Source: an uncultured bacterium (GTDB lineage: Bacteria > Bacillota_I > Bacilli_A > Acholeplasmatales > Anaeroplasmataceae). Taken from it: a stretch of 64,000 nt of DNA. The stretch's first letter is position 1. The number at the start of each line of letters is the position of its first letter. The stretch lies in NCBI GenBank assembly GCA_949293265.1, contig CASFCK010000006.1, forward strand, positions 1-64,000, in the 5' to 3' direction. Shown one piece after another: positions 207-20,044 of the stretch. Position numbers and translations under genes: made by a program. Under the pieces are notes generated by a model that saw only the letters and a program-made list of their open reading frames with translations, was not told the DNA's origin and did no database searches.

Positions 207-1562
207 ATGTTTTTTAGAAAATTACTCTTAAAACTAAATTCAAATAAAGAAATGCATAAAAAAAATAAACAAGCCATAATAATTAGAGGACCTAGACAAG
301 TTGGTAAAACAACATTGGCTTTAGCTTATGCAAAAGAAAATTACAAAAATATATGTTATATCAATTTTTTAGAAAACACGAAAATTAGAGAAATATTTAA
401 AGCTGATTTAAATGTTGATAGATTAATTAGGGATTTATCTGCTTTTTTTCCTAATGTAAAATTTGAACCTTTTAAAACAGTGATTATATTTGATGAAATA
501 CAAGAATGTGCTAGAGCCAGAATGTCGTTAAAACCCTTTATGATAGATGGTAGATTTGATTGTATAGGTACTGGTTCTTTATTAGGTATAAGAGGATATA
601 ATAGAAAGTACGATTTAAGCGTGCCTACTGGATTTGAAGCTTTTTATACTTTGTCATCTTTAGATTTTGAGGAATATTTATTAGCTAAGGGGATTAGTAG
701 TGAAATAATAACTTATTTAAAGGGTTGTGTATCTAAAAAAATTAAAATTGATGAATCTATTCATAGCTTAATGCTAGAATATTTTAGAGAATATATCGTC
801 GTAGGTGGAATGCCACAAATTATAACTACATATAATAAATATCATGATTTAAACGAAGTTAGAAAAAACCAAAGAAATATAATAGAGCAATATAAAGATG
901 ATTTTGGTAAACATATTGATGAGTTTGATAATGTTTACACTAACAATAAAGAACTTAATCGAATTTTATTAGTCTTTAATTCTATACCTAATCAATTGGC
1001 TAAAGAAAACAAAAAATTTCAATATAGTAAAATTAAAACTGGTGGCAGAGCTAATGAATTTTACGATGCTATAAACTTTTTAGTTGAATCAGGACTAGTT
1101 ATGAAGTGTCATAATTTAAATACATTAGATTTACCATTAAGTGCCTATAAGGATGAAGACGCATTTAAGCTTTATTTTTTTGATACTGGTTTATTTATAT
1201 CTTTATTAGATGATTACACGGCTTCTGATATTTTACTTGGTAATTTAGGGATTTATAAAGGGGCTATTTTTGAAAATGTAGTGGCAGACACTTTAAAGAA
1301 GTGTGAAATTCCATTATATTATTACAATAAAAATAACAGCTTAGAACTAGATTTTATTTATAGATTTAAAAATGATATTATTCCTTTAGAAATAAAAGCT
1401 ACTACTGGTAACGCCAAATCATTAAAAACTGTTTTAAATAATTATAATGAATATAAAGTTAAATATGGTATAAAATTTACAGCTAATAATATTAGTTTTA
1501 ATAACAGTATTTTAAATTTGCCATATTACTTAACTTTTTTATTAAATGACATTATACTTTAA
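207..1562 (+). CDS. AAA_14/DUF4143 ATPase
   Basis: This 451-residue protein has the architecture of the AAA_14 plus DUF4143 family. The Walker A is GPRQVGKTT at residues 28-36, the Walker B is IIFDEIQE with D96 and E97, and the sensor-like GTGS segment lies near 121. A GGMP motif at about 200 marks the middle region. The C-terminal domain has a PD-(D/E)xK-like constellation (D382, E395-x-K397). Members are common in gut bacteria as stand-alone accessory ATPases, and their physiological role is mostly unknown; nuclease or toxin-like activity has been suggested but is not shown here. The start is fixed by GAGGTG five bases upstream. It is monocistronic, and tandem repeats abut its ribosome-binding site, so repeat-based control of expression is plausible. 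Two other DUF4143 ATPases occur in the window. Confidence 0.85.
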   Translation: MFFRKLLLKLNSNKEMHKKNKQAIIIRGPRQVGKTTLALAYAKENYKNICYINFLENTKIREIFKADLNVDRLIRDLSAFFPNVKFEPFKTVIIFDEIQECARARMSLKPFMIDGRFDCIGTGSLLGIRGYNRKYDLSVPTGFEAFYTLSSLDFEEYLLAKGISSEIITYLKGCVSKKIKIDESIHSLMLEYFREYIVVGGMPQIITTYNKYHDLNEVRKNQRNIIEQYKDDFGKHIDEFDNVYTNNKELNRILLVFNSIPNQLAKENKKFQYSKIKTGGRANEFYDAINFLVESGLVMKCHNLNTLDLPLSAYKDEDAFKLYFFDTGLFISLLDDYTASDILLGNLGIYKGAIFENVVADTLKKCEIPLYYYNKNNSLELDFIYRFKNDIIPLEIKATTGNAKSLKTVLNNYNEYKVKYGIKFTANNISFNNSILNLPYYLTFLLNDIIL

Positions 1563-1798: not shown

Positions 1799-3028
1799 TT
1801 AAATACCTGCTAGAGGTAAGACATATTTATCTTTTCCTAAAGGATAAATTGAATCAGTGTTGCAGATAATTGCTGAAGGACCTAACTTATAATTAGTATT
1901 ATCTAAAACTTTAAATCCTTTAACATCACTTAAATTATATCTAATTCCCATTTTACATTCTATTCTTGTAATTATTCCTTCATTTAAAATAATTAAATCT
2001 ATTTCATTTTGATTATTATCGCGATAATAATAGAATCCAGGTTCAATTCCATTATTTAAAAATGTTTTTCTTATTTCATTAATAATAAATGTTTCGACAA
2101 AACGGCCTGCAAAAATACTATTCATTAAAATTTCTGAATTATTTAAACGAGCTAAATAGCAAGCTAGTCCCGTATCATTAAAATAAATCTTCGGTCGTTT
2201 AACAATTCTTTTTGTCATACTATACTCATTATATGGCTCTAATAAATAAACTATATCACCAGCTATTAATACACTGAGCCAAGATTTAATAGTTTTCATA
2301 TCAACCTCAAGTGCTTTAGCTAAATTATCATAAACTAATTCTTCTCCAGTTTGAGAAGCTATTAATTCCATAAATCTTCTAAATGTAAAAATGTTTTTAA
2401 CATTAATAATATCTCTTACATCTCGTTCTAAATATGATTCAACATAATCAGCATAAAATTTATTAGATTCTATATTATTGCTATAAAGTTCTGGATACAT
2501 TCCTTTTACAATTAATTTAAATAAAGATGGAGAAGATAACGGATTTAAATTAGCACGTTTTTGTATTTCAATTAAATTATTCAACGAGAAAACTTGCTCT
2601 TCCCTATCTAATATTTCATTTCTTGAAAGGGGAAGAACATGTATAATACTAACTCTACCCGCTAAAGATTCTGTTACATTATTCATTAGCCTATACATTT
2701 GCGAACCAGTTAAAATAAACATGCCATAATTTTGTGTATTTTTCATTTTCTCTTTATTGACTATTTCCTCAATTACATTAAATAATTGAGGTGCTCTTTG
2801 AACCTCATCAATAATAAGTGGCCATTTATGTATTTGTAAAAATAAATCGGGGTCTTTTTGAGCTAATTCTAAATCACGTGAACTATCAAGAGAAACATAA
2901 TTAAATCCTTTATTAATATAATGGCTAGCTAATGTAGTTTTTCCAACCTGTCTTGCCCCAGTAATTAAAGTTACCGGTCTAGTTTGAATTGATTTAGCAA
3001 TTATTTTTAAAATATTTCTATTAATCAT
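1799..3028 (-). CDS. AAA_14/DUF4143 ATPase (second copy)
   Basis: A 409-residue ATPase with Walker A GARQVGKTT at residues 24-32, Walker B LIIDEVQ, a TGSQ sensor-like motif near 107 and a C-terminal DUF4143 domain ending in an NEID...ECK nuclease-like constellation. It is clearly a different subfamily from the gene at 207, sharing only the motifs. The ATG is preceded by AGGGAC at a suitable distance. The gene is monocistronic, and converges with the first ATPase across a 236-base AT-rich gap in which I see nothing else. Its specific function is unknown. Confidence 0.85.
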   Translation of the reverse strand: MINRNILKIIAKSIQTRPVTLITGARQVGKTTLASHYINKGFNYVSLDSSRDLELAQKDPDLFLQIHKWPLIIDEVQRAPQLFNVIEEIVNKEKMKNTQNYGMFILTGSQMYRLMNNVTESLAGRVSIIHVLPLSRNEILDREEQVFSLNNLIEIQKRANLNPLSSPSLFKLIVKGMYPELYSNNIESNKFYADYVESYLERDVRDIINVKNIFTFRRFMELIASQTGEELVYDNLAKALEVDMKTIKSWLSVLIAGDIVYLLEPYNEYSMTKRIVKRPKIYFNDTGLACYLARLNNSEILMNSIFAGRFVETFIINEIRKTFLNNGIEPGFYYYRDNNQNEIDLIILNEGIITRIECKMGIRYNLSDVKGFKVLDNTNYKLGPSAIICNTDSIYPLGKDKYVLPLAGI

Positions 3029-3401: not shown

Positions 3402-5849
3402 TTATTTAAACTTTATTTCTACAAGTTTAACTTCTAAAGGATATAAATCAATATTAAGCTTTAACTGATTATCAGTAATATCCATTATTGTTTTATAATA
3501 TTTAGGTATAGATAAATTATCTAATATTTTAACTTCTTCTTCATTTTCTAGTTCCATTGAAGACATTGTTTCATATATGTCATAACTAGATCCACTTTCT
3601 TTAGTTATACGCGATATCTTAATTATAGCTTTATTATAATTTAGATTATCAATCATAAATTGTAGCTTTCTTAATTTTCTTTCTCTAAATGGTTCATATC
3701 TTGAATGATATTGCAATGAAAAATATTCACCATCAGCAAAATAATCACTAAAATGTTCATAGTTATATACTATTAAAGTTAATTTATTTAGCCCTTTAGT
3801 TACATAATAACCATTACCTTTTTGTAAAACATTATCATCTAATTTACTTAAAAAATAATAAGCATAAAAATTAGCTTTAGGAATACCATTATAAGTAAAT
3901 AGACCATTACCACCATGAAATGTTGTGTCAGGCAATTGAGTTTCATCTAAGAAATCAGTTAATGACCAGTGAGAAAAGCTTTCTAAGCTGTCCATATTTT
4001 CTAAAACATTTTTAATGATATAACAACTTGAATATATTGTGTCATTAATAAAGTTTCTTTGTGATGATGTAACATTCCATTCCGTTAAATATATTTTATC
4101 ACCATGATAAAAATCTGGTTTTTTAATTTTATTTATAAAGTTTTGTAAATTATTAGGATCTTTATTTAATTTTTCAATCTTTTTACCAGTAATAAAGAAA
4201 TCAAAATCATTAGAATAGTAATTTACAACTAAGAAATCAGGATAAACATTATTATCTTCACAATATTTTAAAAAGTCTAAATCCCATTGATACGCAAAAC
4301 TAGCAAATGGGATTAAACCTGGTGATCCTGCTTGAAAATTTATGTTAACACTTTTAATTAAATTATATGTTTCTTTATATAAATTATAAAAATCATCATC
4401 CTTGCTAAACCCAAACGCATGCGCAGTTGAATCAGGTGCATTCCAAATCGTAATAGGCCATGATAACACTTCAATTAAGCCATATTTAGTAATTAAGTGT
4501 TCTATTAATGCTTTAATCAATTCTAACCATTTGCCTAAATCATTAGGTTCTGATATAACCTGTTTTGATTCAAATATTTGTCTTGTTAGTGTGCTTGCTA
4601 GTGCGCTTGGCATATAATCTAGGGTTAGGAATGGTTTTAATCCTAATCGTAGTAAAGTATCTATAACTTTATCTACATAAACGAAAGATATCTTTATTTC
4701 ACCCTTACTACTAACTCTATATAAATGCATATCATCATCAAATATTCCATGAAATCTAACATATTTAAAGCCGATTTTGCTAGTTCTTTCTAACATTTTT
4801 AATATATCTACCTTTAATATATCACTAGCTCTTGAAATAGTAATCATCTTTAAATATGTTTTTTTAATAACTTCCGTTTTTTCACTATAATCTATATTAT
4901 ATTCTGCAAAATCATTAATTGTTGGTGATGATTTAATTAAAGCTTCTTGTTTATTGTTTTGAAAGATTAAATCTAAATAATGTCTCTTATCAAAGTCTAA
5001 ATAAAAGTTCTTATCTTTATTTAGCTTTTTTTCTTTTTGTTTTTTAAATTCTGATGGAGTTAAATTAAAGATATTTTTAAAAGCTCTAATGTAACTTCTA
5101 TAATCCGCAAAACCAGATAAGCTTGCTACATCTTCAATTGGTAAATCCGAATTAGCTAATGCTTCTAACGATTTATTAACTCGCAAATTATCGTAATAAT
5201 TTTGAAAATTTTGATTCATATTGGCATTAAAAAAACTAGAAAAATATTGGGGTGTATAACCAAAGTGTTGACTTAACTCAGTTAAAGATAGATTATCTTT
5301 GTATTTAAATTCAATGTAATTAATAATATCTTTTATTTTTTCTAGATTTTTTTGGCTTTTTCTCTTTACTGTTTCACCTTTAACTTTATAATGATTCAAC
5401 AGTAAATAAAGCAATTGATATGATAGTGTTTTATTTAAAACATCTATATTTTCTTTAATTGTCATATTAGCTTGAATTAACCCAAATATTGTCTCTTTAA
5501 GAGTATGGAATTTACTTTTATCTTCTTCTAATGCTGAATTGCAATTAAAATACATACTTTGTATTTCATCTAAACTAAAACCAAAGTCGGTTAAATTAAC
5601 ATCAACCTCCAAAAACACGACTTCAGTTAATCCTTTTATTTCATAAATAATAAAAGGATTAATCGCAATAATGTCAGAAGCATGTAACTCTACTGCTTCA
5701 TTATCTTGATAATATGTACAATCTCCTTCTAATAAGTACATAATCTTTAGGGTTTTATGCCAGTCTCTTTCTTCACCAGCTATTTTTTGTAAACTTACCT
5801 TTAAAGGGAAATCATATGGGAAATTCAAAAGATTATATTGCATTTTCAT
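3402..5849 (-). CDS. AraC-family regulator fused to a GH39-like sugar-sensing domain
   Basis: An 815-residue protein with three parts: an N-terminal cupin-like ligand domain (about 1-140), an AraC helix-turn-helix pair (about 170-270) and a C-terminal GH39 beta-xylosidase-like domain (about 300-815). In GH39 enzymes the acid/base Glu sits in a W-N-E-P motif; here it reads W469-N-A-P-D, so that Glu is Ala471. The nucleophile-type Glu is kept in LTEWN (E590), and the family block FHGGNGLF is present near 644. The domain therefore probably binds a glycoside rather than cleaving it. The gene is divergent from an RbsABC-type importer, which it probably regulates. Its promoter places +1 at or near the ATG, suggesting leaderless translation. 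Confidence 0.85.
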   Translation of the reverse strand: MKMQYNLLNFPYDFPLKVSLQKIAGEERDWHKTLKIMYLLEGDCTYYQDNEAVELHASDIIAINPFIIYEIKGLTEVVFLEVDVNLTDFGFSLDEIQSMYFNCNSALEEDKSKFHTLKETIFGLIQANMTIKENIDVLNKTLSYQLLYLLLNHYKVKGETVKRKSQKNLEKIKDIINYIEFKYKDNLSLTELSQHFGYTPQYFSSFFNANMNQNFQNYYDNLRVNKSLEALANSDLPIEDVASLSGFADYRSYIRAFKNIFNLTPSEFKKQKEKKLNKDKNFYLDFDKRHYLDLIFQNNKQEALIKSSPTINDFAEYNIDYSEKTEVIKKTYLKMITISRASDILKVDILKMLERTSKIGFKYVRFHGIFDDDMHLYRVSSKGEIKISFVYVDKVIDTLLRLGLKPFLTLDYMPSALASTLTRQIFESKQVISEPNDLGKWLELIKALIEHLITKYGLIEVLSWPITIWNAPDSTAHAFGFSKDDDFYNLYKETYNLIKSVNINFQAGSPGLIPFASFAYQWDLDFLKYCEDNNVYPDFLVVNYYSNDFDFFITGKKIEKLNKDPNNLQNFINKIKKPDFYHGDKIYLTEWNVTSSQRNFINDTIYSSCYIIKNVLENMDSLESFSHWSLTDFLDETQLPDTTFHGGNGLFTYNGIPKANFYAYYFLSKLDDNVLQKGNGYYVTKGLNKLTLIVYNYEHFSDYFADGEYFSLQYHSRYEPFRERKLRKLQFMIDNLNYNKAIIKISRITKESGSSYDIYETMSSMELENEEEVKILDNLSIPKYYKTIMDITDNQLKLNIDLYPLEVKLVEIKFK

Positions 5850-6041: not shown

Positions 6042-8069
6042 ATGGCACAAGCAATCTTCAAGGCTACCCACATGGTTAAAAGATTCGGTCCTACTATCGC
6101 CTTAAACGACGTTGATATTGAAATATATCCTGGTGAAATACGTGGTTTTATTGGTGAAAATGGTAGCGGCAAATCTACTATGAGTCAAATTATGACTGGT
6201 ATTTATACTAAAACTAGTGGTACGATGACTTTTAAAGGCAAACATTGGGAACCCCATTCTATGATGGAGGCTTTACATAATGGTATCGGTATCGCTGTAC
6301 AAGAAAATGGAACAATTTCTGGTATAAGTGTGGCTGAAAACATCTTTTTATGTGAATTGGATAAATTTAGTGGTGTTAATTTTTTTGAAAAAGAAAGAAT
6401 AATTTCTAAATCTAAATATTTTAATCTTGATTTAAACATTTTTGAAGAAATAAAAAATAAATATTTAAATACTAATAATTATGAAGCGGCAAAACAAGAA
6501 GTTATAAAGGTATCTAATGATTTAGTGAATAAATACTTAACTGTTAAAGAATCTTATATTAAACAAGAAAACCAAGAATATGACGACAAAATTAATGCTT
6601 TAATAGAAAAGTTTAATTCTGATAGTAAAGCTTATTATGATCAAATTATTACTAATAATAAATTAAGTGAAAAGGAAAAACAAAAAAGTTACCATTTTTA
6701 TTTAAGTGAATTAAAAAAAGAATATAAAAAACAATTAAAGCATTTAGATAATATTCATCAATACAATTTAATAGCTATTAAAAACGATAAAAAAGCAATT
6801 ATTAACACTAAATTAAATACTCTAGCTTCCTTAAAAGCTCATTTTGAGCCTAATAAAGAGCCAAAACTTAAAAATTTCTTCTTAAAACTTTTCCTTGGTA
6901 AATTAGTAAATCAAGCTAAATTAAACAGACATGCTAAACAAGTCTTAGAAAATATTGGTGTAAGAACAATTAGACCTGAATTACCTATGGGAGCTTATGA
7001 CATTCAAAGCCGTAAATTAGTTGAAATAGCTAAAGTATTAGCTAAAAACCCTGATATTTTTATAGTTGATGAAACTACTACTGCTTTATCAGAAGATGGT
7101 AGACAAATTTTATATAAGAAAATGAATGATTTAAAACAAGAAGGTAAAACAGTGTTATTCATTTCTCATGATTTAGATGAAATAATGGAAAAGTGTGATA
7201 CATTAACTGTTTTAAGAGACGGAAGTATTGTAGCTAATATGGTTAAATCAGAATTTGATCCTGATTTAATTAAAAAATATATGATTGGTAGAGAAATTAA
7301 AGGTGATTACTACCGAGCTGATTTTACCCCTAGTAAAGGTGATGAAGTTTTACTTAAAGTTAATGATCTTTCTTATGGCAATGCTTTAAAAAATATAAAC
7401 CTTGAACTACATGCTGGTGAAATAGTTGGGGTTGGTGGTTTATCTGATTGTGGTATGCACATATTAGGTAAAGCGATGTTTGGATCAATAAGACCAAGTA
7501 AAGGCGAAGTTTTAACTGGTCAAAATTTAGATATTACTGTAAATAGTGAACTTGTGGCAATGAAAAATAAAATTGGTTATTTACCAAAAGATAGAGACGT
7601 TGAAGCCTTAGCTTTAAATGATTCTATCTACAACAATATTGCTATTGCTTCTATTAATAATATCTTGAAGTTTAAGTGTGTAGTTTCTAAACGTGACGAG
7701 AGAGAAATCGTTAAAAAGGAAGTTGATTTCTTACAAATCAAATGTAATAGTAGTTCCGATTTAGTAAGAACTTTATCAGGTGGTAATAAACAAAAAGTTT
7801 CTCTTGCTAAATGGCTAGGTAATGAATCTAAAATATTGATTCTAGATTGTCCTACTCGTGGTGTTGATATCGGGGTTAAACAATTTATTTACCAACTTAT
7901 GGCTAAGCTTAAATATGAAGGTTATGCAATATTAATGATTTCAGAAGAACTACCAGAATTACTAGGTATGTCCGATCGATTATTAATAATGAAAAATGGC
8001 GAAATCTCAAGAGAATTTTTGCGTAGTAAAGATCTTCGTCAAGAAGATGTTATCGAATATATGTTATAG
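6042..8069 (+). CDS. RbsA/MglA-type ABC ATPase with a large helical insertion
   Basis: A 675-residue tandem-ABC sugar importer ATPase, where about 500 residues is usual. Domain 1 has Walker A GENGSGKST (38-46) and Walker B VDETTTAL (D343, E344). Between the usual VAENIFL block and the signature region lies a roughly 180-residue Lys/Glu-rich, predicted coiled-coil insertion (about 115-295) not seen in RbsA or MglA. The domain 1 signature is degenerate (AYDIQSRK). Domain 2 has a degenerate Walker A (GGLSDCGMH), an intact LSGGNKQ signature (578-584) and Walker B LDCPTRGVDIG, in which the catalytic Glu is Cys603. Only the composite site made from Walker A1 and signature 2 looks active. It is the first gene of a four-gene operon, with GAAGG before the ATG. 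Substrate unknown; ribose/galactose-type is the family norm. Confidence 0.9.
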   Translation: MAQAIFKATHMVKRFGPTIALNDVDIEIYPGEIRGFIGENGSGKSTMSQIMTGIYTKTSGTMTFKGKHWEPHSMMEALHNGIGIAVQENGTISGISVAENIFLCELDKFSGVNFFEKERIISKSKYFNLDLNIFEEIKNKYLNTNNYEAAKQEVIKVSNDLVNKYLTVKESYIKQENQEYDDKINALIEKFNSDSKAYYDQIITNNKLSEKEKQKSYHFYLSELKKEYKKQLKHLDNIHQYNLIAIKNDKKAIINTKLNTLASLKAHFEPNKEPKLKNFFLKLFLGKLVNQAKLNRHAKQVLENIGVRTIRPELPMGAYDIQSRKLVEIAKVLAKNPDIFIVDETTTALSEDGRQILYKKMNDLKQEGKTVLFISHDLDEIMEKCDTLTVLRDGSIVANMVKSEFDPDLIKKYMIGREIKGDYYRADFTPSKGDEVLLKVNDLSYGNALKNINLELHAGEIVGVGGLSDCGMHILGKAMFGSIRPSKGEVLTGQNLDITVNSELVAMKNKIGYLPKDRDVEALALNDSIYNNIAIASINNILKFKCVVSKRDEREIVKKEVDFLQIKCNSSSDLVRTLSGGNKQKVSLAKWLGNESKILILDCPTRGVDIGVKQFIYQLMAKLKYEGYAILMISEELPELLGMSDRLLIMKNGEISREFLRSKDLRQEDVIEYML

Positions 8070-8081
8070 GAGGAAATTAGA

Positions 8082-9575
8082 ATGAAATTATATGGTATTA
8101 ATAAAGAGATTGATTTCAGCTCTAATTTACTCGCTGAAATTAAAGAAGTAAAACAACTTCAAGAAAAAAATAAAGATAAATCTTATTTAAAGCGGGCTTG
8201 TGATGTTAATAAAAAATTAAAAAAAGAATATAAAGAATTAGCTAGAAAAATAAATATAGATGTTAAAGAAAAATTAAAAAGCGTTAAATCAGATTATGCT
8301 AAAACTAAATTAGATATGCTAAATAACTATAAAAAACAATTAAATGAACTTAACGCTAAGCAATCTACTTTAAACAAAAATGAATTTAATGAAGAGAAAA
8401 AAGCTTTAACGATCAAACATAAAAGAGCACTTAAAACTTATTATGTTAATAAGTATGAACATCTTTTAAGTATTAAAAAAGATAATCTAGATTTTGCAAA
8501 TTATTACTTAGATCTAGAAAAACAAATTCTAGGTAAAAACACAATATCAAGTAGTATAATGGCAGGTTTTACAGAAAGAAAATCTACTACATTATTAGAA
8601 AAAACTTTAAAAGACCGCTACTTCTGGCTTTCTAAAATTTCAATATTTTCTTTCTTATTCCTATTTATATTATATATTTTAATTTGTGCGATTGGCGGTA
8701 TAAAAATCGAATATGAAAAAATTATTGAAGCAAGTTCTACAATAATAGTTATAGCCCTTGGTGGCGTATTCATTTACTCAATGCGGAGTTTTGATATGTC
8801 GCTTGGTGGGGCTGCTGCCCTAGCTGCAGCTGCAGGCGCAACAATTTGGAATAAAACTAATAATATTATGTTAGTTTTATTAGTAGCTATTATTATTGGC
8901 GTTATAATCGAATTAATAAACGCTTCTTTAGCTAACGTTTTAAAATTACCAGTTATGGTCACTACACTAGCTATGAGCAGTTTGTTAAGTACAGTTTTAA
9001 CCGATGTTTTAGAAAACACATCAACTCAGACAATTAAAGCGACTGGCATTAAAGATTTTGATACGTTTGCTTTCTATATTTTAGTTATACTCGTTTTCTT
9101 TGCAATATGTGCCTTTATATTTAAGATTTCCCCAGTAGGTAGAAAAAATAAAATGATTGGTAACAATAGTGTATCTGCTCGTTATACTGGTATAAATATT
9201 ACAAAACAAGGTATCATAACCTTTATAATTGCCGGAGTAGCTATTGGAACAGGTGCTTTATTATACATTGTTAGATCTAGAACTATTTCTACTTCTTCTT
9301 GTTCTACAATCGGCCTAGACGTTATCTTAGCTGTCGTATTTGGCGGTATGCAAGTTACTGGTGGGGCAAAAAGTAAAATAAGTGCCGCAGTATTTGGTGG
9401 ATTAACTGCTACTTTAATTTCTTATTTGTTAATAGCTATTGGCCGTGTTTCTGGGTTTAGTGCTATAACTCAATACGAATCATTTGTTAAAGGTTTACTA
9501 TTCTTAATAATAGTAGCTGTTAATACAATTGGTAATCGCACAAATAGATTACCTGCGATTGAATTAATGTGGTAG
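8082..9575 (+). CDS. RbsC-type ABC permease with a cytoplasmic coiled-coil N-terminus
   Basis: A 497-residue BPD_transp_2 permease, where about 320-340 residues is usual. The first 180 or so residues are soluble, Lys/Glu-rich and predicted coiled coil; the first membrane helix starts near 185 and the Gly/Ala-rich RbsC core follows (SFDMSLGGAAALAAAAG near 236-252). The extension resembles the insertion in the adjacent ATPase in length, composition and a faint shared pattern (...YxKxLKxxxxNxxxxLLxIKxD). It could dock onto that insertion. AGGAGG lies 8 bases before the ATG, and the gene follows the ATPase by 12 bp. Confidence 0.88.
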   Translation: MKLYGINKEIDFSSNLLAEIKEVKQLQEKNKDKSYLKRACDVNKKLKKEYKELARKINIDVKEKLKSVKSDYAKTKLDMLNNYKKQLNELNAKQSTLNKNEFNEEKKALTIKHKRALKTYYVNKYEHLLSIKKDNLDFANYYLDLEKQILGKNTISSSIMAGFTERKSTTLLEKTLKDRYFWLSKISIFSFLFLFILYILICAIGGIKIEYEKIIEASSTIIVIALGGVFIYSMRSFDMSLGGAAALAAAAGATIWNKTNNIMLVLLVAIIIGVIIELINASLANVLKLPVMVTTLAMSSLLSTVLTDVLENTSTQTIKATGIKDFDTFAFYILVILVFFAICAFIFKISPVGRKNKMIGNNSVSARYTGINITKQGIITFIIAGVAIGTGALLYIVRSRTISTSSCSTIGLDVILAVVFGGMQVTGGAKSKISAAVFGGLTATLISYLLIAIGRVSGFSAITQYESFVKGLLFLIIVAVNTIGNRTNRLPAIELMW

Positions 9576-9587
9576 GAGGACAGTTTT

Positions 9588-10673
9588 ATGAAATTATTTA
9601 ATATTAATAAACCTAAATATATCTCTCCTACTATAAAGAAAAAAGCTAAAAACTTATTTTGGACATTATTATTCCCACTTATAGGTATTTTATTCCTCGT
9701 TACTGGTAGTTTAGCAGGTGGTTATCCTATAATTGGTAATTCAATTACTTATAATAGCGTCTTAATCACAATGATTACCGTTTTAATAGCTTGTTTCGCC
9801 TTAAACACTAACTTAAATAGTGGTCGTATGGACTTCTCTTTAGGTTCAGTTGGAATCCTAGCTTGCGTTCTAGCTTTTAAAACCCTCCCAGATAAAACAA
9901 TGGAAGGATTTGCGATTATCTATTTATTACTAGCTGTTGTTTATGGCATCTTATTAGGAACTATAAGTGGTCTTATCTTCGTAACCCTTAAGATCCCAGC
10001 TATAGTAGTATCCCTTGGTGTTTGTTTAATATTTGAAGGTTTTGCCTATGTTTTAACTGATGGTAAAGGCTCAGTCGATCAATCAGGTGCTATAGCACCA
10101 AGTCTTTACCCCTTAATCACTAATCCGTGGTTTATGTTAATAATAGTTGTAGGTATATCATTCTTCATGTTATTAACTCTAAAATATTCTAAATTTGGGC
10201 ATGATAAACTATCAATATTATTCGGCCAAAAAGTAGCCGTTGATACTGGTGTTAAAGAAATAAAAAACGCTATGATATGTTATGCCTTAGCCGGAGCTTT
10301 AATAGCTGTTTATACTTATATCATCTCAATTTATCAAGCTAAAGTGACAATTTCAACTAATCTAGGTACAGCAATGACCGTCTTACAAAACTTCTTACCT
10401 ATTTTCTTAGGTGGCTTAATTGCTAAACATTCAAATGAAGTTATCGGCTTAATTTGCGGTGTATTTAGCGTCACTTTATTTAAAGAAGGTTTAATTAGAT
10501 TTGGTGTAGATTCTAGTACAATCTCCCTAATTACTTCTCTATTAATCTTCGTAGTCTTAACTTATATGGTAAATTGGACGAACTGGGTTCGTGCAATTAA
10601 AAATAAAATTACCAATTACAAGCTTTCATACATCAAAAAAACAAAAAATCTAAAGGAGGAAGAAAAAGAATGA
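9588..10673 (+). CDS. RbsC-type ABC permease (second subunit)
   Basis: A 361-residue multi-pass BPD_transp_2 permease of normal length, with a short Lys-rich N-terminus (about 30 residues) before the first helix and the family's conserved NLNSGRMDFSLGS segment near 74-87. It likely pairs with the preceding permease as a heterodimer, as in the two-permease (YufP/YufQ-like, nucleoside or sugar) importers. TAGGAGGAC precedes the start. The stop overlaps the start of the lipoprotein gene in ATGA (10670-10673), which indicates translational coupling and that TGA is read as stop. Confidence 0.9.
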   Translation: MKLFNINKPKYISPTIKKKAKNLFWTLLFPLIGILFLVTGSLAGGYPIIGNSITYNSVLITMITVLIACFALNTNLNSGRMDFSLGSVGILACVLAFKTLPDKTMEGFAIIYLLLAVVYGILLGTISGLIFVTLKIPAIVVSLGVCLIFEGFAYVLTDGKGSVDQSGAIAPSLYPLITNPWFMLIIVVGISFFMLLTLKYSKFGHDKLSILFGQKVAVDTGVKEIKNAMICYALAGALIAVYTYIISIYQAKVTISTNLGTAMTVLQNFLPIFLGGLIAKHSNEVIGLICGVFSVTLFKEGLIRFGVDSSTISLITSLLIFVVLTYMVNWTNWVRAIKNKITNYKLSYIKKTKNLKEEEKE

Positions 10674-11908
10674 AAAAGTTTGTAGGATTTTTAGGGGCCG
10701 TCGTAGCCTCAGCAGCTTTAGTAGCTTGCAACAATACCGAATCTGATGGTGGAAAAATAATTGCTGAAGGGGGTAAGGTTGGTTTTATTCTTCCTGGTTC
10801 TGAAGGCGGCGAAACTAAAGCTTTCAAAGAACATTGGGAAAATTTAGCAAAAGAATATGGCGTAGAAATAGTTTATGAAAACTTCCAAGGCCAAGACCCA
10901 GCTTATTACAAAACTTGTGCCGAAAGATTAGTTGCAGCTGGTTGTGATGCTGTTATTTGTAACTTTGAAATGGATGGTAAAGATAGCGTTTTAGAATATT
11001 GTATAGATGAAGAAATTTATGTTGGTTATAGTGGTTCTACTATTTCTGATGAAGTGTTTGATGAATATAAAGAGAGTCCCTATTTCTTAGGTCAAATCGC
11101 TCCTTCTCCTGAAGAAGAACAAGCTGCAGCCTATGAAATGACTAAATATTTCATTGAATTATACTATGGTGAAAATAAAATAGCTATTCCAGAAGGAACA
11201 ACTGACACGTTTGCTATTTGGCCAGCTGACTTCCATGGTATTACTTTAGCCCACCAAATGACTTATCGTTATAAAGGTATTAAACAAGCATTAGAAGAAT
11301 ATGGTGTAACTATTAATGGCGATAACGATTCTGATAGTTCAAAATGGACTTGTACATATACTGCTGATTCAGTATTAAAAGATAAAGTAGCAATTTTAGG
11401 TAACAACTTAACTGATATGAGTGCATTAATTACTCAATGTTCAGCAATCTTTATGAAAATGCCTTGTGCTGTTGTAACAACTTGTACAGGCGATATGTTG
11501 TTAAGTATGTTCGCTCAAGGACCAATCTTATCAACACCTACTCGTTTTGGTACAATTGATGCTTTCGTTACTGAATACGCAAAATGGTATGAAGCAGATA
11601 CAACTAGCGAAACACTAGCTTTCAAAGTAGCTCACGACCCATATTTAGTTGGTAAATATGCCGCAATTAATGAAGCTATATTAGCAGTAACAGTTAAAGC
11701 TTTCCGTGGCGAAGCTATTCGTGATAATGGTAATGCTTTAAATATTAATCAACACTATTGGCATGCTGCTAGCAAAGAAGAATTCGAAAAAGCATGTGAA
11801 GTTTCTCAATCATTCTCATATGGCAAATCAACTTTCGATACTATTACTACAGCTGATCAATTACAAAAATTATTTGATGATGCAACATTAGAAAATCTAG
11901 GAAAATAA
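10670..11908 (+). CDS. sugar-type ABC substrate-binding lipoprotein
   Basis: A 412-residue periplasmic-binding-protein type 1 (RbsB/BMP-like) lipoprotein. The signal peptide ends in the lipobox LVAC with Cys20. The mature protein starts with a GKVGFILPG strand and continues with the alternating Rossmann-like pattern (YYKTCAERLVAAGCDAVICN). It would be tethered on the outer face of the membrane and deliver ligand to the two permeases upstream. GGAGG lies before the ATG inside the end of the permease gene. Ligand not determinable; the divergent GH39-like regulator and the downstream esterase suggest a plant-derived sugar. Confidence 0.9.
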   Translation: MKKFVGFLGAVVASAALVACNNTESDGGKIIAEGGKVGFILPGSEGGETKAFKEHWENLAKEYGVEIVYENFQGQDPAYYKTCAERLVAAGCDAVICNFEMDGKDSVLEYCIDEEIYVGYSGSTISDEVFDEYKESPYFLGQIAPSPEEEQAAAYEMTKYFIELYYGENKIAIPEGTTDTFAIWPADFHGITLAHQMTYRYKGIKQALEEYGVTINGDNDSDSSKWTCTYTADSVLKDKVAILGNNLTDMSALITQCSAIFMKMPCAVVTTCTGDMLLSMFAQGPILSTPTRFGTIDAFVTEYAKWYEADTTSETLAFKVAHDPYLVGKYAAINEAILAVTVKAFRGEAIRDNGNALNINQHYWHAASKEEFEKACEVSQSFSYGKSTFDTITTADQLQKLFDDATLENLGK

Positions 11909-12017: not shown

Positions 12018-12752
12018 ATGGCAAGACTAGCATTAGAATTTCATTCTAAATCACTATTTCGAAAAATTGAAGTACTTTTACATATCCCGACAATGAACCT
12101 AAGTGAAGCTATGCAATGTAAAAGTAAAACCCCTTATCAAGACAATAATCAAAAATTCCCATTAATGATTCTATTATGTGGCTTTGGTGAGTCAAAATAC
12201 GCTTGGGAATCTCATTCTGAGATCGTAGATTATGCTGATAAAAATAAAATAGCCTTATTAATGATTGGCGGCGAAAATAAATGGTATTTAAATTCATCTC
12301 CAATTGAAAATTGGTATACCTTAATTGAGGAAGAAATACTAGACTTTTTATATGGCAACTTCACTTGTCTAAATAAAGATGAACCACTATATATCTGCGG
12401 TGAATCAATGGGAGGATATGGAGCCTTATATCATTATTTAAATAACATCGATAAATATAAAGCTTGTATCTCACTATCTCCTGCTACAAGACCAGATGGT
12501 AATTTAGAAGAAATATTAAAAATTAAATCACTTAAAGAATTGTTCCTAGAAACAAAAGAAAAAACTAAAAACATTTATCTTTCTGTTGGAACTAACGATT
12601 TCATATATAACCATAGTAAAGAATTTAATGATTTCTTAATAAGCAATAACATTGGTGTAAATTATCAATTTAAAAATGGCTATGATCATAGTTGGACTCT
12701 TTGGCGAGAAGAAATTAAAAACATTTTCCATTATTTAGCAAAATTAAAATAA
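12018..12752 (+). CDS. alpha/beta-hydrolase, tributyrin-esterase-like
   Basis: A 244-residue cytoplasmic esterase of the Esterase D/EstA family; the opening MARLALEFHSKSL matches the family's N-terminal strand. The nucleophile elbow is GESMG with Ser130, the acid is Asp194 in GTNDF, and the base is His224 in YDHSW, so the triad is complete. There is no signal peptide. GAGGAGG is well placed before the ATG. It sits behind the sugar importer, with the hairpins above in between, so removal of acyl or acetyl groups from imported sugars is a plausible job. A terminator at 12764-12805 ends the unit. Confidence 0.85.
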   Translation: MARLALEFHSKSLFRKIEVLLHIPTMNLSEAMQCKSKTPYQDNNQKFPLMILLCGFGESKYAWESHSEIVDYADKNKIALLMIGGENKWYLNSSPIENWYTLIEEEILDFLYGNFTCLNKDEPLYICGESMGGYGALYHYLNNIDKYKACISLSPATRPDGNLEEILKIKSLKELFLETKEKTKNIYLSVGTNDFIYNHSKEFNDFLISNNIGVNYQFKNGYDHSWTLWREEIKNIFHYLAKLK

Positions 12753-16499: not shown

Positions 16500-16507
16500 G
16501 GCTTTTT
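16485..16507. terminator. bidirectional terminator between RyR-motif gene and nrdD
   Basis: AAAAAAGCCC/GGGCTTTTT with loop AATA; it contains the stop codon of the plus-strand gene and has T-runs on both strands. Confidence 0.85.
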
Positions 16508-18887
16508 ATTTTAGCTGTTTTATAAATTTTTCTACTTCAACTACTCCATTATATTTTGTTGTGTTTTCGCCTTTTACTACTAAAGTAGGGGCTTGCATTA
16601 TATCATATTTTTCTACTAAATCTAAATTACTTTCTGATTCTATAATTTTATAAGTTAGATTGTTTTCATCTAGTAAAGCTTTAACAATTTTACAATTAGG
16701 ACAAGTTTTAGTAGTAAATAATAATAAATCACCATCATTATTTAATATCGGTATTTGTTGTTCTATGCCATCATTATTTATTTGTTTTTTAAATTCAATA
16801 GCACCTTTTAAAATATTATCATCGAGCTTATATTCTTTTCTACCTTTAAATTCTTCTACTTTGCCATCATTCCAATTTTGAACAGGTCTATAATAACCGG
16901 TAATTCGTGACCAAACTTCAGTTTTTTTGCCACAAATAGGGCAAGTATATTGTTCACCAGTTATATAACCATGATCTTGACAAATTGAATATGTTGGTGA
17001 AATTGTATAATAAGGCAAGTGATAATTATTTGCTATTTTACGAACTAGTGTCATTGCTGATTGCCGTGATGGTAATTTTTCACCTAAGAAAGCATGAAAT
17101 ACTGTTCCTGATGTATATAATGTTTGAAGTTTATCTTCAATATCTAGAGCTTCAAAGATGTCATCTGTATATCCTACTGGTAAATGTGAACTGTTAGTAT
17201 AATAAGGAGTATGTCCATTTTCAGATGCTGTAATAATATCAGGATATTTTTCTTTATCATGTTTAGCTAAACGATAAGTTGTAGATTCAGCAGGTGTAGC
17301 TTCTAAATTATATAAATCACCATATTCTTCTTGATAAATAATTAAACGCTCACGCATATGATTTAGAACTTCAACCGCAAAATCATAAGTTTCTTTATGC
17401 GTTAAATCTTTTCTTAACCAGTTCGCATTTAAGCCAACTTCGTTCATTCCAATTAAACCAATAGTAGAAAAATGATTTTTAAAAGACCCTAGATAACGTT
17501 TAGTATATGGATATAAACCTTCATCTAGTAATTTTGTAATAACGTTTCGTTTTATCTTTAATGATCTTGCGGCTATATCCATTAATCTATCTAGCCTTTT
17601 ATAAAAGTCTTCTTTATCGTTAGCTAAATAAGCTATCCTTGGTAAATTAATAGTTACAACACCTACACTACCTGTAGATTCTCCACTACCAAAATAGCCA
17701 CCGCTCTTTTTTCTTAATTCTCTTAAATCTAATCTTAACCGACAACACATAGATCTAATATCGCTTGGTTGCATATCACTATTAACATAATTAGAAAAAT
17801 AAGGTGTACCATATTTAGCAGTCATTTCAAATAATAATTTATTATTATCCGTTTCAGACCAATCAAAATCCTTAGTTATTGAATAAGTAGGTATTGGATA
17901 TTGGAATCCTCTACCATTAGCATCCCCTTCTATCATTACTTCAATGAACGCTCTATTAATCATATCCATTTCTTTTTTACAATCTTTATATTTAAAATCC
18001 ATAGATTTGCCACCGACAATGGCATATTGTTCGGCTAAATCATTAGGAACAGTCCAATCAAGAGTAATATTAGTAAAAGGAGCTTGAGTTCCCCAACGAC
18101 TTGGAGTATTAACACCATATACAAAAGATTCAATAGCATGTTTTACTTGATCATAATTTAAATTATCTGTTTTAACAAATGGAGCTAAATAAGTATCAAA
18201 TGATGAAAAAGCTTGCGCACCTGCCCATTCATTTTGCATAATACCTAAAAAATTAACCATTTGATTGCATAAACTTGTCAAGTGCTTAGCCGGTTTAGAC
18301 GTCATTTTACCAGGAACTCCACCTAATCCTTCCATTAATAATTGTTTTAATGACCAACCAGCACAATAACCGGTTAACATAGATAAGTCATGAATATGCA
18401 TATCACCATCTTTATGGGCTTTAGCGATTTCTTCATCATATATTTCTGACAACCAATAATTAGCAGTTATTGCCCCACTATTAGATAAAATTAAACCACC
18501 AACTGAATATGTAACCGTTGAATTTTCTTTAACTCGCCAATCCGTAGCTAAGACATAGCTATCAACTAAATCTTTATAATCTAACATTGTATTTTTAACG
18601 TTTCTAACTTTTTCTCTTTGTTTACGATACAAAATATAAGCTTTAGCTACTTCCCCATAACCTGATTCAATTAATACTTGTTCAACACTATCTTGAATAT
18701 CTTCAACATGAACTAAGTCATTTTTTACTTTATTTTGGAAATTGGCTGTAACTCTAAGTGCTAATAATTCAATTATATTTTCATTATAAGCTGTTTCTTT
18801 AGCGTCAAAAGCCTTTGTAATCGCGACTTCAATTTTTTTAATATCAAAACTCGCAACCTTACCATCTCTTTTAATTACATTATACAT
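16506..18887 (-). CDS. nrdD: anaerobic (class III) ribonucleoside-triphosphate reductase with C-terminal glutaredoxin-like domain
   Basis: A 793-residue glycyl-radical enzyme that makes dNTPs anaerobically. An ATP-cone opens it (VIKRDGKVASFDIKKIEVAI). The catalytic barrel includes SGGYFGSGESTGSVGVVTIN. A C-x2-H...CPICG zinc site (Cys649, Cys652) is followed by SRITGYYRPV with the radical Gly664. Instead of ending there, about 130 further residues carry a glutaredoxin/NrdH-like fold, LLLFTTKTCPNCKIVKALL with C729-P-N-C732 and a cis-Pro-type QAPTLVV. It may supply electrons to its own active site; related NrdD proteins depend on NrdH-type redoxins. The ATG at 18887 is favoured over the upstream GTG because AGGGGTG precedes it. 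One base separates it from the end of nrdG. Confidence 0.95.
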   Translation of the reverse strand: MYNVIKRDGKVASFDIKKIEVAITKAFDAKETAYNENIIELLALRVTANFQNKVKNDLVHVEDIQDSVEQVLIESGYGEVAKAYILYRKQREKVRNVKNTMLDYKDLVDSYVLATDWRVKENSTVTYSVGGLILSNSGAITANYWLSEIYDEEIAKAHKDGDMHIHDLSMLTGYCAGWSLKQLLMEGLGGVPGKMTSKPAKHLTSLCNQMVNFLGIMQNEWAGAQAFSSFDTYLAPFVKTDNLNYDQVKHAIESFVYGVNTPSRWGTQAPFTNITLDWTVPNDLAEQYAIVGGKSMDFKYKDCKKEMDMINRAFIEVMIEGDANGRGFQYPIPTYSITKDFDWSETDNNKLLFEMTAKYGTPYFSNYVNSDMQPSDIRSMCCRLRLDLRELRKKSGGYFGSGESTGSVGVVTINLPRIAYLANDKEDFYKRLDRLMDIAARSLKIKRNVITKLLDEGLYPYTKRYLGSFKNHFSTIGLIGMNEVGLNANWLRKDLTHKETYDFAVEVLNHMRERLIIYQEEYGDLYNLEATPAESTTYRLAKHDKEKYPDIITASENGHTPYYTNSSHLPVGYTDDIFEALDIEDKLQTLYTSGTVFHAFLGEKLPSRQSAMTLVRKIANNYHLPYYTISPTYSICQDHGYITGEQYTCPICGKKTEVWSRITGYYRPVQNWNDGKVEEFKGRKEYKLDDNILKGAIEFKKQINNDGIEQQIPILNNDGDLLLFTTKTCPNCKIVKALLDENNLTYKIIESESNLDLVEKYDIMQAPTLVVKGENTTKYNGVVEVEKFIKQLK

Positions 18888-18888
18888 T

Positions 18889-20022
18889 TTACACACCCCT
18901 TATACTTACATTTTTAATATTTTTTTCTAATTCTTTTTTATACTTTTCGAGCGTTTCTAAAGTATGACTATGCAAGGTTTTATCAATTACATTTTCACCA
19001 TTTCTAAAACTTTGTAAATAATAATTTTTAGCCCCATTAAGCCATAATCCTATTTCTTTAATATCGTTTAAATCATGATATTCTTTAACAATTGTAGTTC
19101 TAAATTCATAATCTACAATTCCCCTTTTCAAAAGATCTACACTTTTATAAATATTAGTCAAGTCAATATTTTTAACACCACATGTCAGACCATATTTATT
19201 AGGTGAATTTTTAATATCCATAGCTACATAATCAACTAATTTTAAATCGACTATCTTTTTTAATTCCTCATAAAGAAAACCATTAGTATCTAATTTAACT
19301 AATAAACCTAAATTCTTAACCTTAGTAATAAAGGAAATAAGCCCTCTATGTAATAATGGCTCTCCCCCACTTATGCATACACCATCTAAAATGCTTTTTC
19401 TTTTAGTTAAATATTCTAATATATCTGCTTCCTTAATTTCTTTAATATTTTCATCTAAATAAACTAAATCACTATTATGACAAAAAGGACAACAAAAATT
19501 ACATCCCCCTGTAAATATTGTGGCTGCTAATTTAGATGGGTAATCTAATAGTGTCGATTTTTGTAAACCAAAAAATTTAATTTCTTCTTCTTGATTAAAA
19601 TTATATTTTCTAGCCTTATTAGCTAGTTTAGCTTGAATATTTAAATAAACTTCAAGCTCATCACTAGAAACATCACTAGTTAAATATTCCCACCAATCTC
19701 TAATCACCATATATAAGCGTGACATAATTTGTTTGGCTTTTTCGGTTAAATATAATAATTTAGCTCTTTTATCAAAACTTTCTTCTTCTTTTACATATCC
19801 TTTTTCTTCTAATTTTTGAATGCCTTTAGTAACTGTACCTTTATCATAACTACAAATATTAGCTATATCTACTAAAGATATACCTTCTTTTTGCGATAAA
19901 ACGATTAAAAATGTTACTTGTCCAGCTGAAATATCTAGATCAGTTAAAGCTAAATCATAATATTTATGCATCGAGCGGTACAAAATAGAAAAGTCTAAGG
20001 ATCTATATTTATTATAATCCAT
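18889..20022 (-). CDS. nrdG: MarR regulator fused to NrdD-activating radical-SAM enzyme
   Basis: A 377-residue two-domain protein. Residues about 1-140 form a MarR-type winged helix (DKGTVTKGIQKLEEKGYVK recognition region, then DKRAKLLYLTEKA wing). From about 150 the NrdG/PflA-like activase begins, with LDYPSKLAATIFTGGC and the 4Fe-4S/SAM motif C174-x3-C178-x2-C181 and GGEP at 219-222. It generates the glycyl radical on NrdD using SAM, while the N-terminal domain probably binds DNA. ATG 20022 is preferred over ATG 20037 because AAGGTG lies just before it. The palindrome covering the -35 suggests autoregulation. Single-domain NrdG is about 170-230 residues, so the extra domain accounts for the length. 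Confidence 0.9.
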   Translation of the reverse strand: MDYNKYRSLDFSILYRSMHKYYDLALTDLDISAGQVTFLIVLSQKEGISLVDIANICSYDKGTVTKGIQKLEEKGYVKEEESFDKRAKLLYLTEKAKQIMSRLYMVIRDWWEYLTSDVSSDELEVYLNIQAKLANKARKYNFNQEEEIKFFGLQKSTLLDYPSKLAATIFTGGCNFCCPFCHNSDLVYLDENIKEIKEADILEYLTKRKSILDGVCISGGEPLLHRGLISFITKVKNLGLLVKLDTNGFLYEELKKIVDLKLVDYVAMDIKNSPNKYGLTCGVKNIDLTNIYKSVDLLKRGIVDYEFRTTIVKEYHDLNDIKEIGLWLNGAKNYYLQSFRNGENVIDKTLHSHTLETLEKYKKELEKNIKNVSIRGV

Positions 20023-20044
20023 AACTTTCACCTTCATTTGTTAT

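Follow-up and report, generated by a model that had tools for sequence, protein, structure and literature searches.

Two subunits of one ABC importer, its fused ATPase and the first of its two permeases, carry extensions that are predicted to fold into helical hairpins of nearly equal size and that occur together in every genome in which either was found. The importer lies in the window, by which we mean the whole 64,000-nt stretch of DNA that was analysed, from an uncultured gut-type bacterium (its own genome is G000). The importer type is already known. However, to our knowledge the paired hairpins are undescribed in the literature searched, and no description of such paired extensions was found in the open-licence part of it that our search covered. 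The features concerned are listed in the table.

Judged by its domain and profile matches, the system is an RbsABC-type (type II, fused-NBD) sugar importer. The ATPase contains two PF00005 stretches in one chain and matches PRK13549, PRK11288 and PRK10762 (E ~1e-108, under the equivalog cut-offs). Permease 1 matches PF02653 at 84 bits, and its core has a BtuC-like (type II importer) fold, the top Foldseek match being BtuC 2qi9_A. Permease 2 gave no PF02653 match in the Pfam search; RbsC-type NCBIfam models match it below their cut-offs, and in a tree it clusters with the permeases that come second in other operons of this type. The substrate-binding lipoprotein hits PF13407 at E 1.7e-6, under the curated cut-off, and is related to SBPs from other RbsABC loci. 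Transport of sugar is putative, being suggested by the neighbouring AraC-GH39 regulator and esterase and by UxuA near the sister operon. PADLOC matches were generic ATPase matches only and were discarded.

An AraC-type regulator with a C-terminal GH39-like domain (about 815-829 aa; the domain was checked with Pfam on the window copy) adjoins each of five RbsABC-type operons, and is a possible glycosidase-fold regulator sensing (plant) sugars. In the sister operons of G036 and G037 the binding protein is circularly permuted relative to that of the window: residues 169-378 of the window protein match residues 40-238 of the G037 protein (E 1.5e-13), and residues 36-163 match residues 306-433 (E 3e-9). 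The same swapped order is seen when the non-permuted G072 binding protein is compared with that of G037, and the G036 fragment agrees with the G037 permutation. Elsewhere in the window, an anaerobic ribonucleotide reductase (NRDD) with a glutaredoxin-like C-terminal domain lies beside a MarR-type DNA-binding domain fused to a radical-SAM domain, which is probably a fused activase-regulator, and two putative AAA_14/DUF4143 ATPases are encoded near one another.

Features of the importer, its neighbourhood and other enlarged importer subunits. Positions refer to the window unless another stretch is named.
Feature	Position	Strand	Description and basis
Putative AAA_14/DUF4143 ATPase	207-1562	+	
Putative AAA_14/DUF4143 ATPase	1799-3028	-	
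AraC-type regulator fused to GH39-like domain	3402..5849	-	815 aa, divergent
Other AraC-GH39 regulators	L056 3868-6333; L057 12242-14731; L053 3416-5863; L058 10072-12534		
RbsA-type fused double ATPase	6042..8069	+	675 aa; ORF, Pfam, NCBIfam
ATPase insert, helical subdomain of NBD1	6393..6911 (approx.)	+	aa ~118-290; alignment with insert-less relatives
ATPase hairpin (predicted)	6435..6845	+	helices a 132-142, b 147-203, turn 204-209, c 210-268; AlphaFold2
RbsC-type permease 1	8082..9575	+	497 aa; ORF, Pfam, NCBIfam, Foldseek
Permease 1 N-terminal cytoplasmic extension	8082..~8597	+	aa 1 to ~172; alignment
Permease 1 hairpin (predicted)	8121..8531	+	helices a 14-29, b ~35-92, turn 93-98, c 99-150; AlphaFold2
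Permease 2 of the same importer	9588..10673	+	361 aa, without extension; NCBIfam, tree
Substrate-binding lipoprotein, Peripla_BP_4-like	10670..11908	+	normal lobe order; below Pfam cut-off
Permuted binding proteins	L053 10791-12167 (G037:C9); L052 3-656 (G036)		
Putative esterase	12018..12752	+	neighbour conserved in sister operon
Anaerobic ribonucleotide reductase (NRDD)	16506-18896	-	
MarR-radical-SAM protein	18889-20037	-	
PotA with insert	L107 11869-13407 (G000:C1); further copies L158-L184		
OppF	L155 5765-7069 (G000:C5)		434 aa; charged ~100-residue insert between Walker A and Q-loop
OppD	L155 7056-9221 (G000:C5)		721 aa; ~380-residue insert between Q-loop and signature
OppC	L155 9214-10713 (G000:C5)		499 aa; enlarged between N-terminal TM domain and permease domain

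Alignment with RbsA-type relatives places ~173 additional residues of the ATPase after the SVAENIFL (Q-loop) block and before the domain-1 signature; in permease 1, ~172 additional residues precede the first transmembrane helix. An initial annotation of the DNA, which gave the coordinates 6384-8621, had estimated about 180 at each of these sites and had described the two as similar in length and absent from typical RbsA and RbsC, and on all of these points it was borne out. The region between Q-loop and signature is the helical subdomain of ABC ATPases, the part that meets the permease. With nearly all NCBIfam sugar-importer models, the best domains start at residues ~286-289 of the ATPase, bypassing the insert, and at residues ~172-214 of permease 1. 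Moreover, the insert is absent from ~17 further RbsA-type ATPases of the order (about 500-550 aa). Neither extension has a Pfam match above cut-off (Death, Med6 and RNase_Y_N appeared as sub-threshold matches only and were rejected), and a PDB sequence search with both gave no significant match. In the window, the ATPase insert and the permease extension contain 18% and 21% Lys, just 3 and 2 P+G residues and net charges of +9 and +15, respectively; in G037 the permease extension has a net charge of only +2.

AlphaFold2 was run on the ATPase and permease 1 as one chain, which was possible because both lie in one frame (read-through); permease residue numbers are the fused numbers minus 680. Both segments were modelled as long helices and not as disordered chain, and are predicted to be one device: a short helix leads into a hairpin of two helices that is nearly the same size in both proteins, helix b, turn and helix c spanning 57, 6 and 59 residues in the ATPase and 58, 6 and 52 in the permease. 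A second construct, of permease 1 alone and with a different alignment, gave permease helix boundaries matching within one residue, helix b starting at residue 35 where the fused model has 34. In the fused model pLDDT was ~70-88 over the ATPase hairpin and ~52-84 over that of the permease (~58-90 in the permease-only model), with pTM of 0.49 for the fused model and 0.60 for the permease alone, and the relative placement of the hairpins is uncertain. A Foldseek search with the fused model was dominated by NBD matches and was set aside as uninformative on the hairpins. The two segments had been taken for coiled coils at the outset. Long ordered helices are indeed predicted, but a simple index of helical hydrophobic periodicity was within the shuffled range for both window segments (59/200 and 43/200 shuffles were equally high), and we therefore describe them as helical hairpins and not as clear heptad coiled coils.

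The pairing noticed in the window recurs elsewhere. An extended permease was found in 4/160 genomes of the order, from two genera (G000, G007, G036 and G037), and each time the ATPase next to it has the insert. In G036 the contig ends within the ATPase gene and leaves its insert nearly complete, which makes this the one incomplete pair of the four. Neither extension was found alone among the RbsABC-type importers of these 160 genomes. The G007 importer is 97-98% identical to that of the window, whilst G036 and G037 represent another genus, with a permease ~31% and an ATPase ~55% identical to the window proteins. The permeases of insert-less RbsABC loci in the order are about 320-370 aa long and without extension, and the closest relatives (G023, G072 and G073) have neither insert nor extension. 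A profile of each extension searched against the order returned the four known loci and otherwise weak matches in unrelated frames, which were also all that was found of stand-alone hairpin relatives. A class- and phylum-wide search, a weak one, found no extension among the top 2-3 candidates per genome. In trees built from the cores, with the extensions left out, the four loci form one clade (support 100/100 for the ATPase and 83/85 for the permease), for which the simplest account would be one joint gain of both extensions in a common ancestor. Given one shared origin, finding the two together in four genomes amounts to one event, to which only their joint retention adds weight.

Purifying selection acts on both segments, to the same degree in each and less tightly than on the cores. 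Between the window and G007, dN/dS is 0.18 in the ATPase insert and 0.044 in its core, and 0.19 in the permease extension (a rough ratio, from 13 differences) and 0.024 in its core. Between G037 and G036 the corresponding values are 0.15 (again rough, as dS in the insert is high at 1.5) and 0.03 for the ATPase, and 0.21 and 0.045 for the permease. Amino-acid identity between the latter two genomes is 69.9% in the ATPase insert and 70.3% in the permease extension, with both cores at about 95%. Broken down by helix, conservation goes in step in the two proteins: it is 59% (ATPase) and 61% (permease) in helix b, and 78% and 82% in helix c, which is clearly better conserved in both proteins. Taken together, co-occurrence, a single clade and constraint at equal rates point to the pair being one joint innovation.

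The ATPase hairpin sits in the NBD predicted to bind and hydrolyse ATP, since NBD1 has, as read from the translation, intact Walker A (GENGSGKST), Walker B (IFIVDE) and H-loop (ISHD) motifs and NBD2 a canonical signature (LSGGNKQK). The NBD1 signature (MGAYDIQSRK) and the Walker A and B motifs of NBD2 are degenerate, and a single working ATP site, formed by the nucleotide site of NBD1 and the signature of NBD2, is expected.

ABC importers are held together mainly via coupling helices that dock into the NBDs. The reading that we prefer, tentatively and well short of conviction, is that the hairpins serve as a brace or spacer on the cytoplasmic side, where NBD1 and permease 1 meet. The fused ATPase and permease 1 would each have gained a ~170-residue cytoplasmic helical hairpin in the same ancestor, the one projecting from the NBD1 helical subdomain and the other hanging from the cytoplasmic N-terminus of the permease. 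The two would lie on the same cytoplasmic side and act jointly, either in contact with each other or both bound to a single further partner, and the pair would fix which NBD engages which permease, or limit NBD opening. Joint presence, membership of one clade, matched helices, parallel selection and per-helix conservation all count in favour of a brace, as does the position of the ATPase insert, which falls between Q-loop block and signature and hence within the helical subdomain. Against it count the pTM of 0.49 of the fused model, the single origin, the incomplete G036 pair and an insert in PotA that has no permease extension beside it (see below). The net positive charge that the two hairpins share in the window is a mild argument against their pairing with one another.

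The main rival, which we regard as possible if somewhat less probable, is that the hairpins are separate Lys-rich arms binding anionic lipids, nucleic acid or a soluble partner, and reflect a habit of this lineage of placing charged helical inserts in its importer ATPases. The PotA of the window's genome (512 aa) carries a charged insert of 180 residues in its NBD, at the site where the RbsA-type ATPase has its own. Across the order such PotA inserts are ~157-234 aa long, charged, proline-poor and helical-looking, lie in the NBD helical subdomain and occur in several families, beside ordinary PotA-like paralogues of ~370-450 aa. PotB and PotC of the window's genome have no extension; therefore an insert in the helical subdomain needs no permease partner in general. 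Profile comparison of the PotA insert with the importer insert did not show homology (hhalign P 0.23). OppD and OppF of the same genome are also enlarged ATPases with helical-looking inserts. The net charges of the window pair are likewise what such arms would have, although that of the G037 permease extension hardly is. However, separate arms leave unexplained why the permease extension is restricted to importers with the ATPase insert, and why the hairpins match in size and evolutionary rate.

It is unlikely that the segments arose by neutral or nearly neutral growth in length, as tolerated helical spacers under weak constraint against unfolding and with no specific role. Constraint on them is ~4-8x looser than on the cores (dN/dS), they are ~20-28% identical between genera, and their hydrophobic periodicity is not clear. 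Such growth is nevertheless disfavoured because of the selection data: dN/dS is well under 1 in 4/4 comparisons and helix c is better kept than b in both proteins of G036 and G037. Moreover, both hairpins were retained even as identity between the permease cores fell to about 35%.

Less probable still is that one hairpin domain was copied into both subunits and that the copies zip together as a clamp, assigning NBD1 to permease 1 and tuning the coupling cycle; we know of no physical ATPase-permease tether described for ABC importers. Profile comparison of the two extensions (hhalign) gave no significant similarity, and among 49 coil-like segments of the same genome used as a control one, the PotA insert, was an equally good match. 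The alignment score of the window pair (62) equals that of shuffled sequences (62.2+-9.3). Smith-Waterman scores were matched by 0/1000 shuffles in 3/9 pairs (G037-G037, G037-G036 and G036-G037), none of which includes a window protein, and only G037/G037 and G036/G037 show the turns in register. As the K-rich composition of the segments is similar, these tests are limited, and homology between the two hairpins is suggestive only. The faint likeness in pattern that the initial annotation saw thus survives in the predicted architecture and in the sequences of G036 and G037, but not in those of the window pair. An assembly or gene-fusion artefact can be set aside as scarcely credible: the genomes are draft assemblies of many contigs, but full-length open frames are present in three of them with a fourth partial, and the extension segments show divergence and purifying selection.

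With RbsA, PotA, OppD and OppF all enlarged, this order seems to have modified its importer motors in a way that has drawn little notice. The other cases differ from the importer of the window in what is enlarged and where. PotA shares the site of its insert with the window ATPase, but the PotABC permeases of the window's genome are unextended, unlike permease 1. The OppD insert is far longer and that of OppF lies nearer to Walker A, both unlike the window ATPase, and OppC is enlarged internally, whereas the extension of permease 1 is N-terminal. Mycoplasma PotA and RbsA/RbsC-like proteins (MG042, MG119/MG120) also exceed the usual length and may contain comparable inserts. What is distinctive here is the permease extension and the strict pairing, not the ATPase insert by itself. 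The gain of matched hairpins by both partners at once would be a natural experiment in reinforcing or regulating the pairing of NBD and permease.

In Bacillus subtilis, one degenerate ATP site has been noted in RbsA and NupO (PMC11466899), the same arrangement as in the window ATPase; the parts of that structural survey consulted make no mention of comparable hairpins for either protein. The RbsABC, MglABC and NupNOPQ importers likewise combine a fused two-NBD ATPase, two BPD_transp_2-type permeases and a binding lipoprotein, but the importer of the window adds to this plan a helical hairpin of about 170 residues in NBD1 and another at the N-terminus of one permease.
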